Shown in pieces: positions 11,358 through 20,551 of a DNA stretch of 21,702 nt. Positions within the stretch are counted from its first letter, which is position 1, and the number at the start of each line of letters is the position of its first letter. The notes beneath the pieces were generated by a model that ran no database searches, was not told where the DNA came from, and was given only the letters and a program-made list of their open reading frames with translations. Source of the stretch: a virus; the IMG/VR virus record IMGVR_UViG_3300030099_003984, positions 1 to 21,702 of that record; one strand, 5' to 3'. Made by a program: the position numbers and the translations under genes.

Positions 11358-12118
11358 TTGGGTAAATCAATAACGCTATAATTACCCCACCCTGTTCCAT
11401 AATCTAAAGAAAGATCAGCGAAAGCTATTTGATCTAACGTGTCATGCATACGATTCGTAGCGTTATTCAAAAGATCTGAACTGACTACATGCATATGTGA
11501 AACATAAGGGCTAGATTTTTCACAAGCTATAAAAGAAAACTCTTTGACTTCAATACCTGCTAATTCTATTACGTATTTGTAAAACGCTGCTTGAATATCG
11601 TATGCATATTTAAAACACTCTTTAGAAAAACCTGCAGGAGAAGCGTCTATGGTTGTCTTAACGTCATAGACTGCACCCTCTTTGGTTATCATGAGGTCAG
11701 GCCTTGTCTTTAACTCTAGTCCTGATCTAGGACATCTTTCAAAAATACTAACTTCGTTAACTCTATCTTTGTGTCTTAATGCTTTACCGCATTTGTTATT
11801 TTCTAAAGCAGACTTAGCCATCTTGTGTGCCATGTAATATTCTGTTTCACTAAGAAGAATCTGATCTTCCTGTAATTCTTTTTCTAGCTCTTTAAAAGCT
11901 TTAGATGTTTTAGTTTTTGGACCCTTTACAACTAAGTCTTTATCTTCTTCTAAGAGTAATGCATGAACTGCACTACCTAAATTAAAAGCTGAGGATTGTT
12001 TTTGTTTTTGTCCTCTCCAGTGTGCTAGTGATTTTTTATACACTGTCTTGACTGCCGAAGAAGAGATACCACCCATTGAATGATACCTCGTATTCGATAA
12101 GTCTTTGATTATACCCAT
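11348..12118 (-). CDS. RecE/lambda-exonuclease-like PD-(D/E)XK 5'-3' exonuclease
   Basis: 256 aa. The nuclease core is visible: GSAVH (H52) in the N-terminal helix region, KTRPDLMI with D141, YDVKTT with D152 and K154 (the D-x-K pair), and YDIQAAFYKYVI with Q176 and Y180. H, D, D-x-K and QxxxY are the hallmarks of the RecB/RecE exonuclease family. It would resect duplex DNA ends in the host cytoplasm, serving phage recombination or host DNA recycling. It sits directly after the probable ssDNA-binding protein (TAATG overlap) and overlaps endonuclease I, the arrangement expected of a resection and strand-processing set. Confidence 0.88.
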   Translation of the reverse strand: MGIIKDLSNTRYHSMGGISSSAVKTVYKKSLAHWRGQKQKQSSAFNLGSAVHALLLEEDKDLVVKGPKTKTSKAFKELEKELQEDQILLSETEYYMAHKMAKSALENNKCGKALRHKDRVNEVSIFERCPRSGLELKTRPDLMITKEGAVYDVKTTIDASPAGFSKECFKYAYDIQAAFYKYVIELAGIEVKEFSFIACEKSSPYVSHMHVVSSDLLNNATNRMHDTLDQIAFADLSLDYGTGWGNYSVIDLPKWL

Positions 12119-12975
12119 TAGTCTGCCTCTTCTACGTTGACGAACTCAGCCACGATAGCAGCGTCATCATCAGAAATAGCGTCCTTATTCTTTTCATCCC
12201 ATTGTTCTAAGATGTTAGAGTTTTGCGCAGTAATATAAGCTAAGAAGTTATGTAAAGTATCTTGGTCTTCAGGTTGTAACTCTAACTTGTCAACATACTC
12301 TAAAGATATAATAACATAATTTTCACCACCAGGTTCATGTCCTAGTTTAAATGTACATTGAATAGGTAATATATTTTTACGCCTTAACGCATTTACTGCC
12401 AGATCTAAAGGCTTGATGCTTGAAGGTGGTAGCTCTAATGAAAAAGGCATATCAGTAATTGCATCTACTGGATTACCTGATTCGTCAGTCACACCTGTTG
12501 CAGTCATTAAACCAAAAATAATCTTCTTACGATTGATAGTGCGAATTAGCTCTTTTGTTTTTTCAGGCACACTATCCCAATCTTCTATGTAACCTGATGG
12601 TCTTCCTAAATTAAATGTACCAACATTATCTTTTAAATCACCTTTGAGATCGTTAGCCATGACGGTTTTCATCATCATATTTTCTTTAGCATCCCACTTT
12701 GACCACTGTTGTCGGATTGCAAAGATACGTATGGTAGGACTAGTTGCGTAGACAACATCATCTTCACCTCTTGTAACCTTGTATGCACCTGCAGGTACAA
12801 CCTCAGTCTTGATAGGCTTACCGTTAACTTCAATCTCACCCATAATACCCGTGTGCATCAAGTTAACTCTAGCTAAAATGGAACTCTTTCTTTCTCCACC
12901 GTTTTGAGAATTTACACCTACTGCCTCTGCAAGAGACATACCTAAATCTTTTTGTATTGCTAATTCTGTATTCAT
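12118..12975 (-). CDS. Probable ssDNA-binding (or annealing) protein
   Basis: 285 aa. The middle is mixed beta/alpha and the C-terminus is strongly acidic (DAISDDDAAIVAEF then EEAD, last 21 residues), as in T7 gp2.5-type and other ssDNA-binding proteins that use the tail to contact polymerase and helicase. No OB-fold motif can be proved by eye. Position is the best clue: first gene after the DNA polymerase and directly before the exonuclease. A single-strand annealing protein paired with a RecE-type exonuclease is the main alternative. AAGGAAG lies 10 bases before the ATG, and a strong promoter (13011-13038) precedes it, suggesting high output, as expected for a stoichiometric DNA-coating protein. 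Confidence 0.5.
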   Translation of the reverse strand: MNTELAIQKDLGMSLAEAVGVNSQNGGERKSSILARVNLMHTGIMGEIEVNGKPIKTEVVPAGAYKVTRGEDDVVYATSPTIRIFAIRQQWSKWDAKENMMMKTVMANDLKGDLKDNVGTFNLGRPSGYIEDWDSVPEKTKELIRTINRKKIIFGLMTATGVTDESGNPVDAITDMPFSLELPPSSIKPLDLAVNALRRKNILPIQCTFKLGHEPGGENYVIISLEYVDKLELQPEDQDTLHNFLAYITAQNSNILEQWDEKNKDAISDDDAAIVAEFVNVEEAD

Positions 12976-13010: not shown

Positions 13011-13038
13011 GTTATACTCTAAACGTCAATTGTGTCAA
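13011..13038 (-). promoter_or_regulatory. Sigma70-type promoter, TTGACA-16-TATAAC
   Basis: On the minus strand a perfect TTGACA (13038-13033) is followed by a 16-base spacer and TATAAC (13016-13011, five of six consensus). The -35 box lies inside the last codons of the DNA polymerase gene and the -10 box just after its stop. Transcription would begin near 13004 with a leader of about 30 bases and drive the ssDNA-binding protein gene and the genes behind it. Confidence 0.7.
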
Positions 13039-15067
13039 GCCAATTATTACCAATTTTGGCTTCTAATAATAGAGGCACATTCATTTCTATATCATATGCG
13101 TCTTTTATGACACAGTTTAGATTAGCGTTGATAGTCTCAACAATAGTCAAGACTTTTTTTACTTCGTCAGGGTGTACATCTATCACCATAGAATCATGTA
13201 CAGTGTTGACTAAGCATGACTGTAGAGGCTCAAGCAATCGCTCAAACTCTAGTAGTACCACAGGTACGATGTCACCTGTAGCAAATCCTTGGACAGGATA
13301 ATTCTTTATCATGGTAAAGTGTGACACACTACCATTACTCCTACGAGTTACATCAGGGAATGCATACTGTCTGCCACTCACGTTGGTAATCTTGAGAAAC
13401 CTCATAGCTTCGTCACCTAACTTCTTGTGCCATTTAGCTACGCCTTTGTACTTCTGCGTAAAGTGTTCATAGTATGCAGCTACAGCCTTTGGTCTACCAT
13501 ATCCAGTAGCACCAAAGAGAGGGGCGAATGTATGCTCCTTTGCTGCTTGGCGCTGTGTAGGTTGCCCTGCATCACTGATAACCTTTGCTGTGTAGGAGTG
13601 TACATCAAATCCTGTATCGATCTCCTCCATTGCTGTCCTGTCCTGTGAGAGGAATGCAGCAACTCTAAACTCCAATTGTGCAAAGTCACACTCACATATC
13701 TGTCCACCCTCCCATCGTGATATGAACACACGTTTTACTGGAAATGTTCCTCCTCTTGGCATGTTTTGCATGTTGGGATTACGTCCAGAGAATCTACCTG
13801 TACTGGTAACACTTTGGGTAAGGTTGACGTGAAGGATTCCGTTGGGCTTAGTAAATATGTCGATACCATCCACGAAGCTACTAAGGTAACTGCTGATAGC
13901 AGAGAGGCGCTTAAGATCAGTAAGAAAAGCAAGAGCAGAATCCATACCGTTGCTTGTAGCGGTAGCCATAAGACTTTCAAGATTACCCTTACTAGTACTA
14001 AAACCATTTGCGCTTATCCATTTTTTGTTTGGCGCAGAGAAGCACAGTCCTGCCACTTGTTTTGTTTGCCTCAGAATATAACCTTTACCTTCACACTTTT
14101 TACATATGTTTGGTATCTTGTACAGCGTGCCATCTTTTCTTGTTCTCCAAACTTTACCACCACCGTTACAGTTAGTGCAGGTAGATGCTTTAGTCTTTCT
14201 AATGATAGAACTGTTTGCATCTATGGCATCCCTAAACTCTTGTTGTGTCTCAGTGTAGTCAAACAAGTCAGCCCATTCTTTCTTGTTGTGTATGCGTCTA
14301 CTGAATATAACTTGAGATGCTTGCTCAGGACTGTTGAGATTGATAGGTGTGTCACCCATAAGATCACGAGTCTTGCGCTGCAGTCTATCTTCTATCTCAG
14401 CTTTCTCTTTCTCAAACTCTATTCGGACTTGCTGAAGGGCGGCTCTATCCACACGGATTCCTGACATATACATTCTGGTGAGGGCTTTACAGGTGCGGAA
14501 GGTAATGTCTCTGACATTATGTAAGGACTCTGCTTCTGGCTTTGCGTAGTCTTGTTCCAAGGCAAAGAACAACTCACGAGTAATGTCGAGGTCACTCCTA
14601 AGATAAAAAAGAAGATCTTGTAAAGGTATCTCATTGGTGTTGTATCCTTTCTTGTAATACTCTTTGAGAGTGTCTTGCTTCTGGTAGTTTAGATTCCTAC
14701 GTTCAGCACAAGCCTCAAGACTTATAGGTTCTTTCTGCCCACGTTGTAACAAATACTCAGCTAACATAGTGTCATAGATGTCACCATCATACTTGAATCC
14801 TGACTCCCATAACCACATCAAGTCATGCTGTGCATTGTGCATAATCAGTAATGTTGTATGGTCTAGTAGGATTTGTATGTTTTTAGCTCTTGATCCACCT
14901 ACGTCTTGATCTTCCTTATGATTGAGCGTGAACAAGTGTGTCTCGTCTGCATTGTCTACGTTCTGTACACCCACTTGTACAAGTTCAAGGCCAGGTTCAA
15001 ATGGATCAAGTATGTTTTTATTATCTCGTTTAGTTATTGTATTTTCTACATCAAGTACAAGTCTCAT
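13019..15067 (-). CDS. polA: Family A DNA polymerase with inserted DnaJ-type zinc fingers
   Basis: 682 aa; replicative polymerase with proofreading. Exonuclease domain: D6-x-E8 (Exo I), HNAQHD with D82 (Exo II) and Y155-x3-D159 (Exo III). Polymerase domain: STGRFSGRNPNMQNMPR (422-438), motif A CDFAQLEFR with D461, motif B RQAAKEHTF with R506, K510 and F514, and motif C VHDSM with H624/D625. F514 occupies the site of E. coli F762 and T7 Y526. Two C-x-x-C-x-G-x-G fingers (C297/C300 and C322/C325) sit between INLNSPEQ (242-249) and STSKGNLESL (357-366), in the thumb. This insertion is the reported hallmark of phage HMO-2011. The start overlaps the helicase stop as ATGA, so replication enzymes are translationally coupled. 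Confidence 0.95.
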   Translation of the reverse strand: MRLVLDVENTITKRDNKNILDPFEPGLELVQVGVQNVDNADETHLFTLNHKEDQDVGGSRAKNIQILLDHTTLLIMHNAQHDLMWLWESGFKYDGDIYDTMLAEYLLQRGQKEPISLEACAERRNLNYQKQDTLKEYYKKGYNTNEIPLQDLLFYLRSDLDITRELFFALEQDYAKPEAESLHNVRDITFRTCKALTRMYMSGIRVDRAALQQVRIEFEKEKAEIEDRLQRKTRDLMGDTPINLNSPEQASQVIFSRRIHNKKEWADLFDYTETQQEFRDAIDANSSIIRKTKASTCTNCNGGGKVWRTRKDGTLYKIPNICKKCEGKGYILRQTKQVAGLCFSAPNKKWISANGFSTSKGNLESLMATATSNGMDSALAFLTDLKRLSAISSYLSSFVDGIDIFTKPNGILHVNLTQSVTSTGRFSGRNPNMQNMPRGGTFPVKRVFISRWEGGQICECDFAQLEFRVAAFLSQDRTAMEEIDTGFDVHSYTAKVISDAGQPTQRQAAKEHTFAPLFGATGYGRPKAVAAYYEHFTQKYKGVAKWHKKLGDEAMRFLKITNVSGRQYAFPDVTRRSNGSVSHFTMIKNYPVQGFATGDIVPVVLLEFERLLEPLQSCLVNTVHDSMVIDVHPDEVKKVLTIVETINANLNCVIKDAYDIEMNVPLLLEAKIGNNWLDTIDV
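14093..14179 (-). other. DnaJ-like double zinc-finger insertion within the DNA polymerase thumb
   Basis: Codons for C297 to C325 of the polymerase. The two halves read CTNCNGGG and CKKCEGKG, separated by 21 residues containing several Lys/Arg, which matches half of the four-repeat cysteine-rich region of DnaJ. The four cysteines can hold one zinc ion. In ordinary Pol I-type enzymes the flanking motifs are only some 20 residues apart; here they are about 100 apart. A DNA-grip or partner-docking module is inferred. Confidence 0.85.
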
Positions 15068-16293
15068 GCTAAATACTGACTCCTGTCTCCATCTAACTCA
15101 CAGTGAATAGTACCATGCCATCCACCCTTAAGTTTGTTCTTTGCTATACAAAGATGTCTCTGATTAGTTTCATCTTCGTCTTGCCCCTCTACTACTTTGT
15201 TCTTTGATATGAGTATCATCAGGTCAGCCTCTGCTGCTTTACCAGTACGACTACCTTCAAGCATTGATTGATCAGGATGCACCAAACCTTCTGCTGCTGC
15301 ACTCAACTGTGACATCCATATGATTGCACACTTATGTTCCTTGGATATGTTACGTGCGTGTATGGCTGCTTCCTTAAGATAGATGTCAGACTTATCACTT
15401 GTCTTGGACGCAAACTTGTCACCCATATCAAGCACTACAATGTCAGGCTCATATGCTTTAACTACAGCCTCAACCCAAGTCATGTCTTTACCTGTACTGT
15501 CTTTGATGAATACGTTTTTATCTATTGGATCATAACGCAGTGCAGCTACTGCCATATTAGTTTTGACTTCATCCATACTCATGCTTGTAGCAGCACTAAG
15601 GTATCTTGCACCTACACGTTCATAGCTTTCTTCATTACAAAGAATTATACACTTAGCACCTTGTGCTGCAAACCCATCAGGTGCAGCTATTGCACTAGCA
15701 TGAAAGCTAGTCTTACCTGTGTTAGGTCTAGCACCTACAACAATTAGGTGTCCTGCACTTATGCCCTCTGTCCTACGTTTAAGTGTAGATATGTTCCACT
15801 TCCATTGTGACTGTATGTCATTGGCTTTTAATAATGTATCGATACTTGTATCATCCCACTCCACCTTGAGGTTGGGTAGAAAATCATCTTGGTAATTACT
15901 CAGTATGTTTCTCAGGGGTTCAAGGCTAGACTGTGATCCGTTAACGTAGTCAAATCCAAGGTTAGCAATCTCTTCACCTACCACCTGTTGAAATAACTTA
16001 GACAGCACATCATCAGCTATCTCTGTAGACAGTGGCTTTTCTCGTGCAACCTTTTGAAACAACTCACTAAAAACTAGCTTGTTAGCTGTAGTCATACTGG
16101 TGTTGTTAACAAAGAATAAAGATTCTAACTCTGTGGGTGTAATGCTCTTACCATATGTGTCCATAGCGTAGTCAAGAGTCTGCTTGATCTTACGTGCATC
16201 TTTACTAAATATCTTGTCAGGACAACGTATTCCTTTGTGATTATCGTAGAACTCTTTGTCCAACATAGTGCGGATCAATGCTAGTTCCATCAT
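15064..16293 (-). CDS. DnaB-like replicative DNA helicase (RecA fold)
   Basis: 409 aa from the chosen ATG. An N-terminal helical domain (about residues 1-150) is followed by a RecA-type ATPase: Walker A GARPNTGKTS (about 187-196), a conserved ILCNEES strand, Walker B IVVLDMGD (about 285-292), and IIWMSQLS (about 324-331), which carries the sensor glutamine. A C-terminal KNKLKGG follows. The primase is a separate gene (17034-17825), so the T7 gp4 functions are split here. The ATG at 16293 has GAGAGGA 7 bases upstream; an earlier in-frame TTG at 16311 lacks a ribosome binding site. The stop overlaps the polymerase start as ATGA, so helicase and polymerase are probably made in step. Confidence 0.88.
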   Translation of the reverse strand: MMELALIRTMLDKEFYDNHKGIRCPDKIFSKDARKIKQTLDYAMDTYGKSITPTELESLFFVNNTSMTTANKLVFSELFQKVAREKPLSTEIADDVLSKLFQQVVGEEIANLGFDYVNGSQSSLEPLRNILSNYQDDFLPNLKVEWDDTSIDTLLKANDIQSQWKWNISTLKRRTEGISAGHLIVVGARPNTGKTSFHASAIAAPDGFAAQGAKCIILCNEESYERVGARYLSAATSMSMDEVKTNMAVAALRYDPIDKNVFIKDSTGKDMTWVEAVVKAYEPDIVVLDMGDKFASKTSDKSDIYLKEAAIHARNISKEHKCAIIWMSQLSAAAEGLVHPDQSMLEGSRTGKAAEADLMILISKNKVVEGQDEDETNQRHLCIAKNKLKGGWHGTIHCELDGDRSQYLA

Positions 16294-16307
16294 GTTTGTT
16301 TCCTCTC

Positions 16308-16469
16308 TCAATCAAAACTTGTCTCCTTGTTGTACACCTTACCCAACTCTTCATCAAAAGCTTTATCTGAGGCATACCTCTTACACGCCTCTAACACTTC
16401 GTCTACTGTCAAGTCAACGTATACTTTACCTAAAGGCACACGATTATCTATTATTGCTGTCTTTGCCAT
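16308..16469 (-). CDS. Small hypothetical protein, 53 aa
   Basis: The frame reads MAKTAIIDNRVPLGKVYVDL, then a helix with VDEVLEACKRYA, ending in KETSFD. A short beta hairpin followed by a helix is suggested. It lies between the 49-aa membrane protein (4 bases upstream) and the helicase (14 bases downstream), and its end abuts the helicase Shine-Dalgarno. Codon use looks coding and it fills a gap that would otherwise be empty, which is why I accept it despite a weak GGTG ribosome binding site. Function unknown. Confidence 0.6.
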   Translation of the reverse strand: MAKTAIIDNRVPLGKVYVDLTVDEVLEACKRYASDKAFDEELGKVYNKETSFD

Positions 16470-17034: not shown

Positions 17035-17825
17035 TAAACTATCTCCTCTAGTTTCTTTATGTCTGCATCTACTTTATATTTAATATCATCATACAGTCTT
17101 AACGCTATAGTTTCTAACCCTGTGTAAGCCTCTATCTCTCTCTTATATTGTAGTGTCTTGTGTGCTGCGTCAGGGTCTAACGCTACGACAACCTTATAGA
17201 AATTATCTAAGTGTTGCATATCTGCCACACTAAATGACGTACCCAGTATAGCTAAACCTGTCAAACCAGGAAATAGTTTAGCTGCTACAGTTGCACTAAT
17301 AACATCCTCCACTAATATTACTACACCAGTGGGTTTACCTACCACACGAGTAAAGACTGTAGGTGTTTTGTCATAGCGTAACCATTTGACTTGGCTTGCG
17401 TATGATATGCTTCTACCTATCGCTCCTACAAGTCTGCCCTTCTCATAAATAGGAAACACCACACGTTCATCTTTAACATCGTACATCAAGTCTTCACCAT
17501 ACAATCCCCACCTACCTACAAATCTTTCGTAGTCTCTATGTTCAACCGTGGGATTAACTACGTACTCAGGATAAACAAAAGGCTCATGCTCTAACTCTGG
17601 CTCTTCATATCTTGGGTCTAGCTTACGTTGTATTTCCTCTGCTGTCATACCTAATGACACTACTCCCTTAGTAGTACAGTCTAGCTTGTAACAATTGTAA
17701 AGCAACGCATTACCATCACGTCTAGCAGTGAATGTGTTTTTACCTTTGCATTGAGGACAGTCACCTCTATGTGTAACATCCTCTTTTAAATCAAGGTCTT
17801 GCAAGTAGTTCTTAATGTTTATCAT
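17034..17825 (-). CDS. DNA primase (T7 gp4 primase-like: zinc finger and TOPRIM)
   Basis: 263 aa. Makes RNA primers for the phage polymerase. The N-terminal zinc-binding domain has C23-P-Q-C26 and, 18 residues on, C45 and C50 (YNCYKLDC). The TOPRIM core shows VILVEDVISA with E173 and ALDPDAAHK with D217 and D219, the metal ligands. Between them lies the RNA polymerase domain (VVFPIYEKGRLVGAIGRS). No helicase domain follows; that is a separate gene. The ATG at 17825 is preceded by GGAGGAAAG with good spacing; an upstream TTG at 17855 is less likely. The first 14 bases overlap the HNH gene and the stop overlaps the oxidase-like gene (TAATG). Confidence 0.9.
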   Translation of the reverse strand: MINIKNYLQDLDLKEDVTHRGDCPQCKGKNTFTARRDGNALLYNCYKLDCTTKGVVSLGMTAEEIQRKLDPRYEEPELEHEPFVYPEYVVNPTVEHRDYERFVGRWGLYGEDLMYDVKDERVVFPIYEKGRLVGAIGRSISYASQVKWLRYDKTPTVFTRVVGKPTGVVILVEDVISATVAAKLFPGLTGLAILGTSFSVADMQHLDNFYKVVVALDPDAAHKTLQYKREIEAYTGLETIALRLYDDIKYKVDADIKKLEEIV

Positions 17826-18165
17826 ATAAGTCTTTCCTCCAATGTTTCTCCTCAAATGTTACTCTGGCGTGGCAGTTAGCGCATAAAACTTCACACTTAC
17901 CCATTTCTTTTTTAAGTCTAAGTTTAGATTTACTATACCTTCCAAACCCCATCTTCCCTACTTGATCTCCTATCTGAAAACTTTTTTTAACAGGGTTCTT
18001 ATGATGGAAATGTAAAGAGGCATGATGCTCATTGAAGCCACAGCGTTTACATCCCTTAATTACTTTAAACCTACGTAATACGTTTATACCATACTGATAC
18101 CTTCTCCTAGACCTGTCTCTCCATATTTTTCTTTGTACCTCCTGAGACATTTCACTTCTACCCAC
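17812..18165 (-). CDS. HNH endonuclease
   Basis: 117 aa. A basic N-terminus is followed by C39-K-R-C42, then LHFHHKNP with H54/H55, and CEVLCANCHARV with C95-A-N-C98-H99: the zinc-ribbon form of the HNH nuclease motif. Such enzymes make nicks or double-strand breaks; free-standing ones in phages are often homing endonucleases, and others take part in packaging. No terminase gene is nearby here, so homing or host DNA attack are more likely. I use the GTG at 18165 (AAGGGA upstream, 8-base overlap with the integrase stop); an ATG at 18150 would drop five residues. It overlaps both neighbours. Confidence 0.88.
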   Translation of the reverse strand: MGRSEMSQEVQRKIWRDRSRRRYQYGINVLRRFKVIKGCKRCGFNEHHASLHFHHKNPVKKSFQIGDQVGKMGFGRYSKSKLRLKKEMGKCEVLCANCHARVTFEEKHWRKDLYDKH

Positions 18166-19765: not shown

Positions 19766-20551
19766 TTATAATAATTTAAGTTGTACTGGTTCTTTGTACA
19801 CTTCATCTAATCTAGGATGCAACACATCTCCAAATTCTATATCACAAAAGTTACCACAATCAGGCATGATCATCTTTTGTTTGCGCCCTGCGTTTGGATC
19901 TAGTTCATCCAAGAATACCCCTCTAATACAGCTATTGCCCACCTCTCTTTCTGCTTTAGCCATTCTGTCAAACGTTTCAGGAAAGTCTGTCCTTATTTTG
20001 TTCCAGTATCCCATGCCACCTTTGACACAGCCAATACAATTATTGTTGCCATAACCTAACTCATACATCTTAGGTCTTTTTATTCCTTGCTTCTCAAGAT
20101 AGTAAAGACTAGCAGGTTTATCCATCCTCTGTTCTATCAAAGGAAAGATAGGTTTAGCAGAAGGATACTGCTCTTGAAAACGTATGGCTCTGTTTACTTC
20201 TTTCTTTGTGTATTCAAAGCCAAATACCTGTGCACTATATTCTTCTTCTCTTTCAATCCTTTGTCTTACCATCTTCTTTAGTACAAGCGTACATCTTGCA
20301 CCCCCAGGTCCGTTCACATATTTATCTTTCAATATAACCTCGAACTGATCTTTATGTTTAGGTGCTCTATCTACCCTTATCTCCTTCCCATACCAATCTT
20401 CACACTGTTCCTTAAATCTTTTGTTATCGTCATGAGCACTATCAATGGCAAAGTATATAGGTTCAACATTATCTATACCGTATTCATCAATAGCTAACTT
20501 AGTAGCTACTGCACTTGTTACACCTGCACTCCACCACGCTATGACTTTCAT
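19766..20551 (-). CDS. PAPS reductase-like PP-loop (adenine nucleotide alpha-hydrolase) protein
   Basis: 261 aa. The N-terminal loop WWSAGVTSAVATKLA (S8-A-G-V-T-S) is the PP-loop that binds ATP or PAPS. ARCT (C87), NNCIGC (C172, C175), C208 and DCGNFC (C232, C236) give six cysteines, more than needed for a classical PAPS reductase. No ECGLH-type C-terminus with the reductase active cysteine is present. Phage proteins of this class are usually labelled phosphoadenosine phosphosulfate reductase family; relatives include DndC (DNA phosphorothioation) and tRNA thiolases, and the cysteines suggest an iron-sulfur cluster. Sulfate reduction, base or backbone thiolation, or nucleotide activation are all possible. 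The start overlaps the 35-aa gene as TAATG. Confidence 0.75.
   Translation of the reverse strand: MKVIAWWSAGVTSAVATKLAIDEYGIDNVEPIYFAIDSAHDDNKRFKEQCEDWYGKEIRVDRAPKHKDQFEVILKDKYVNGPGGARCTLVLKKMVRQRIEREEEYSAQVFGFEYTKKEVNRAIRFQEQYPSAKPIFPLIEQRMDKPASLYYLEKQGIKRPKMYELGYGNNNCIGCVKGGMGYWNKIRTDFPETFDRMAKAEREVGNSCIRGVFLDELDPNAGRKQKMIMPDCGNFCDIEFGDVLHPRLDEVYKEPVQLKLL

Follow-up and report, generated by a model that had tools for sequence, protein, structure and literature searches.

A basic, putatively zinc-binding finger at the thumb tip of an HMO-2011-type phage DNA polymerase and its possible role as a DNA grip

Introduction

The replicative polymerases of HMO-2011-type phages carry a partial DnaJ central domain between their exonuclease and polymerase domains, in which two CXXCXGXG repeats are presumed to bind zinc; the available sections of the papers describing this hallmark report no functional test of it (PMC9038755, PMC6918029, PMC8528129). 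These phages are described as a dominant and broadly distributed marine viral group (PMC9038755), and their polymerase serves as a marker gene. What this domain contributes to replication is the question raised by the locus analysed here, a virus record whose entire 21,702 bases are hereafter called the window. A sequence-only reading of the window had described a DnaJ-type module in the polymerase thumb, citing HMO-2011 as precedent, and had proposed that it acts either as a built-in clamp or as a dock for a partner protein. The precedent is indeed published (PMC9038755, PMC6918029), and the finger itself was already known in the HMO-2011 group, of which the present polymerase is one more member. 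New here are its thumb-tip position, the one-zinc reading, its basicity, its confident placement in a structural model, and the acidic-tailed SSB-like neighbour.

Results

Three genes of the window's replication module are central to the argument:

13019-15067, minus strand: 682-aa family A DNA polymerase that has a 3'-5' exonuclease domain and a thumb insert (Pfam, AlphaFold2, Foldseek)
15064-16311, minus strand: DnaB-like replicative helicase, a possible alternative partner, overlapping the polymerase start (Pfam DnaB_C, E=1.7e-18)
12118-12975, minus strand: SSB-like protein, 285 aa, with an acidic C-terminal tail, a candidate partner directly downstream of the polymerase gene (position, model)

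The polymerase matches Pfam DNA_pol_A (E=1.8e-48) and exo1 (E=1e-7), and shares 72% identity with its counterpart in Roseobacter phage CRP-603 and 56% with that of HMO-2011. It resembles the polymerases of HMO-2011, CRP-1/2/3, and HTVC033P (34-72% identical) in domain order, insert, and gene order, with a partial DnaJ domain between the 3'-5' exonuclease and family A polymerase domains, two CXXCXGXG repeats (residues 297-304 and 322-329), and a primase-helicase-polymerase order flanked by HMO-2011-like neighbours. The full series of primase, helicase, polymerase, SSB-like protein, exonuclease, and endonuclease I resembles that of HMO-2011 (compared with L087). Motif C of the polymerase (residues 624-626, 13190-13198, minus strand) reads HDS instead of the usual family A HDE, and is invariant in a 92-sequence alignment. 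Elsewhere in the window, an ORF between integrase and primase (17812-18165, minus strand), overlapping the listed primase start, has a weak HNH-endonuclease match and is possibly a homing endonuclease, and a PAPS-reductase-like gene (19766-20551, minus strand) weakly matches, in PADLOC, the DNA phosphorothioation protein SspD (E=1e-5).

The cysteine-rich part of the insert comprises two elements:

14081-14179, minus strand: putative zinc-knuckle pair, C297-x2-C300-x21-C322-x2-C325 through G329 (cysteine invariance, 1exk match)
14138-14146, minus strand: basic turn between the knuckles, with R308 and R310 (basic in 97% and 100% of relatives, respectively)

Translation places C297 at 14179 and the end of C325 at 14093, in two CxxCxGxG motifs (C297/C300 and C322/C325) flanked by INLNSPEQ and STSKGNLESL, all as first described. 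The interval originally given for the module, 14093-14179, is exact from cysteine to cysteine, but the finger proper is larger (residues 289-338, 14203-14054). Shuffling the polymerase protein 20,000 times never produced two such motifs. The best PDB sequence match of the finger was the Cys-rich domain of E. coli DnaJ (1exk, E=0.006) over motifs 2+3, which share with it the pattern TCxxCxGxGxV...CxxCxGxGxxx and which form zinc site 2 (E. coli C161/C164/C183/C186), while Pfam PF00684 (DnaJ_CXXCXGXG) matched at E=1.9e-5, below its curated gathering cut-off (25.2 vs 32.7 bits). By analogy with DnaJ, the two CxxC pairs would form a single four-cysteine zinc site, hence one finger, not two, and this finger looks like motifs 2+3 of the DnaJ domain, its inner half. 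The designation "DnaJ-type" therefore describes its look but not its membership: the finger has two repeats and one putative zinc site instead of the four repeats and two zinc sites of DnaJ (Hsp40), its turn is longer and more basic, its signature glycines drift, it belongs to a different protein, and no J domain was found by Pfam in the ten window proteins scanned.

All four cysteines are kept in each of the 302 polymerases covering the region (114 non-redundant at 90%). Of these 114 sequences, only 47 have both DnaJ signatures intact, whereas the other 67 have lost at least one signature glycine yet retain all four cysteines; conservation thus falls on the putative zinc ligands and not on the DnaJ signature. 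The four cysteines, together with G302, G329, G340, G355, and F356, are invariant to the same degree as the catalytic residues, and from the cysteine invariance we infer that the finger binds zinc.

The insert and the elements surrounding it are arranged as follows:

14303-14329, minus strand: thumb helix after INLNSPEQ, residues 247-255, corresponding to helix H1 of Pol I thumbs (DSSP on the model, Pol I alignment)
14006-14296, minus strand: full extent of the thumb-tip insert by comparison with E. coli Pol I, about residues 258-354 (Klenow and E. coli Pol I alignments)
14180-14200, minus strand: residues 290-296 of the predicted first ribbon strand, which spans residues 286-296 in the model (model; residue 291 basic in every relative)
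14054-14080, minus strand: predicted second ribbon strand, residues 330-338 (model)
13952-13990, minus strand: helix H2 of the thumb, residues 360-372, following the FSTS motif (model)

The thumb location first proposed is borne out by both alignments and model, which place the insert between helices H1 and H2. The finger follows the INLNSPEQ helix, which corresponds in the alignment to FNLSSTKQL of E. coli Pol I. The Klenow alignment stops at residue 258 and restarts at 391, such that residues 259-390 face about 38 Klenow residues. E. coli Pol I residues 590-613, reportedly the segment removed in a thumb deletion of that enzyme, align to residues 254-362. This position, at the tip between H1 and H2, is that of an Ins1-like thumb-tip insert, the likeness being one of place. 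The AlphaFold2 model, which includes neither zinc nor DNA, is confident overall (mean pLDDT 92.6, pTM 0.85, 92 sequences) and across the finger region (pLDDT 84-92), and its Foldseek matches include Bst and Klenow fragments (E from 1e-28 to 1e-25) as well as phage polymerases. Its elements run from helix 247-255 through two extra helices belonging to the insert (262-271 and 275-285), strand 286-296, knuckles 297-329, and strand 330-338 to helix 360-372. The model thus reads as a pair of knuckles capping a two-stranded ribbon at the thumb tip, if the strands pair as the order of elements suggests.

In T7-type polymerases, thumb helix H and the NPSS helix are separated by an insert of about 70-76 residues; here the polymerase reads TRDLMGDTPINLNSPEQ and the site before the INLNSPEQ helix is empty, which confirms that a T7-type thioredoxin-binding insert is absent. 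The idea that the finger replaces thioredoxin dependence calls for caution, as the two inserts are not positional equivalents: the thioredoxin insert of T7 gene 5 precedes FNPSS at 334, whereas the finger follows the corresponding helix. A MAFFT alignment that set the T7 insert opposite the finger was rejected as an artefact, since the FNPSS motif is misaligned there. Both are basic thumb inserts of phage family A polymerases; the T7 insert binds thioredoxin and has no CxxC motif pair.

The finger is also the most basic 49-residue segment of the polymerase, residues 290-338 carrying a net charge of +11 vs -14 for the remainder of the protein. Across the 302 relatives its net charge averages +7.9 and never falls below +3, and the most basic segment overlaps the finger in 200 of 293 relatives. 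Positions 291, 308, and 310 are basic in 97-100% of relatives, and position 321 mostly so. Among 15 close sequences, dN/dS was higher in the finger than anywhere else in the polymerase (0.24 vs about 0.11), a pattern in which putative ligands and charge are kept while the other residues drift. This is compatible with a loose, electrostatic, non-specific contact to the DNA backbone, and also with a co-evolving protein interface.

Outside HMO-2011-type polymerases, no such finger was found in 50,697 phage records, barring a weak match in an unrelated protein of CcrColossus (E=0.5). In GTDB genome contigs, finger-bearing matches came from phage-like contigs in marine metagenome-assembled genomes (MAGs) and from one single-cell genome, and the finger was absent from more distant polymerases. 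HMO-2011-type contigs (L339-L346) were binned in MAGs labelled Euryarchaeota, Flavobacteriales, Neomarinimicrobiota, and Maricaulis, and two of them occur in two MAGs each (identical names and lengths), so that these bin labels are unreliable as hosts.

In two relatives, StenR_269 and L157, a short linker is all that takes the place of the insert; StenR_269 used as a query retrieved only one relative. A thioredoxin-domain gene lies two genes upstream of the StenR_269 polymerase (L090:2385-2651), which itself has no T7-type insert. Zobellviridae-type relatives (e.g., ICP2 and MEP402) are close to the HMO type (hhalign E=4.5e-49) and have at the same place a Cys-free insert of about 45 residues (YGGTIKE..FKTGxRxGEVKYK), but differ in having no CxxC pairs, a polymerase encoded by two genes, and an SSB-like neighbour without detectable homology. 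Given this insert, the finger may be a thumb-tip hairpin that has been elaborated and stapled by zinc. In four of these relatives (L085, L086, L089, and L091) the polymerase is split after RLSSS..NLQN, a split already reported for MEP401/402, whose polymerases have also been described as devoid of the partial DnaJ domain (PMC10580990).

Discussion

Given the constraint on the cysteines, glycines, and F356, the finger fold between two strands, and the missing T7-type insert, we give slightly better than even chances to the finger being an intrinsic basic grip on duplex DNA that raises processivity. A single zinc-stapled basic beta-ribbon would lengthen the thumb tip, lie along the newly made duplex, and hold its phosphate backbone by charge, and the polymerase could then remain template-bound with no need of a processivity factor of the thioredoxin type. 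Analogy with other family A polymerases argues for such contact and for its effect on processivity. With a truncated thumb, E. coli Pol I is less processive and has lower fidelity (Minnick 1996, cited in PMC10061031). Insertion 1, at the thumb tip of Pol theta, Pol nu, and plant organellar polymerases, contacts DNA or is modelled on it and affects DNA binding and processivity (PMC13365964), and is lysine-rich in the plant organellar enzyme (PMC7699545). The finger resembles insertion 1 in its thumb-tip place, in basicity for the plant enzyme, and in the role proposed here; the two are not known to share sequence ancestry, and the available sections of both papers describe no zinc ligands in insertion 1.

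Clamp and dock remain the right pair of hypotheses, and charge and thumb-tip position favour the clamp. As a dock, the main rival, the basic finger would bind the acidic tail of the phage SSB (12118-12975), or else the helicase/primase, and keep the polymerase in the replisome. The protein adjoining the polymerase had no significant Pfam or PHROG match, and other sequence searches likewise yielded no identification. Its AlphaFold2 model (pLDDT 88.8) has T4 gp32 as a weak top Foldseek match (E=0.03, prob 0.69), and it probably represents an unannotated SSB family conserved directly after the polymerase in the HMO-2011 group. All 86 HMO-type homologues checked have the acidic tail. Finger and downstream gene also switch together: in the zinc-less relatives MEP402 and QDWS535, the gene downstream of the polymerase has no homology to the 12118-12975 protein by hmmsearch and its product ends in SDIPF/DDIPF, a tip of the bacterial SSB type. 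There are precedents, too, in the T7 SSB tail, which binds the thumb insert of T7 polymerase (PMC7699545), and in a Clostridium perfringens PolA, predicted to bind its own SSB at the thumb tip (PMC10061031). The raised dN/dS of the finger fits this reading as it does a DNA contact and to that extent counts against the grip, as do the basic charge, which would fit an acidic protein tail no less than DNA, and the relatives StenR_269 and L157, which by their sequences manage without any insert. However, the SSB assignment draws on a weak fold similarity and on gene position, and the co-switching is confounded with phylogeny; we consider docking rather unlikely.

It is less probable still that zinc only steadies an enlarged thumb-tip hairpin and that the finger has no direct contact function. 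The Cys-free Zobellviridae-type insert, itself a hairpin as far as its sequence suggests, would suit such a staple, but pure folding would not need the basic residues that persist at surface positions 291, 308, 310, and mostly 321. Ranked last, and very improbable, is a redox or zinc sensor or a recruiter of the host DnaK/DnaJ machinery, for which the DnaJ Cys-rich domain as best solved-structure match by sequence and a literature mention of DnaJ in lambda replication (PMC9038755) would speak, against a single putative zinc site, the loss of DnaJ glycines in most relatives while the cysteines stay, and the lack of a J domain in the ten window proteins scanned.

For HMO-2011-type phages, these results narrow the "partial DnaJ domain" to a basic thumb-tip module with one putative zinc site, and name the residues for mutation. 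The published two-CXXCXGXG criterion is stricter than nature, and a literal reading of it would overlook or misdescribe many members of the group. The module sits where processivity is controlled in other family A polymerases, and if the finger works as proposed it would offer a portable processivity module for engineered polymerases. More tentatively, and with clearly less than even confidence, a zinc-stapled thumb-tip clamp may provide processivity without any accessory factor, as a second phage solution that lies across the helix from the T7 insert.
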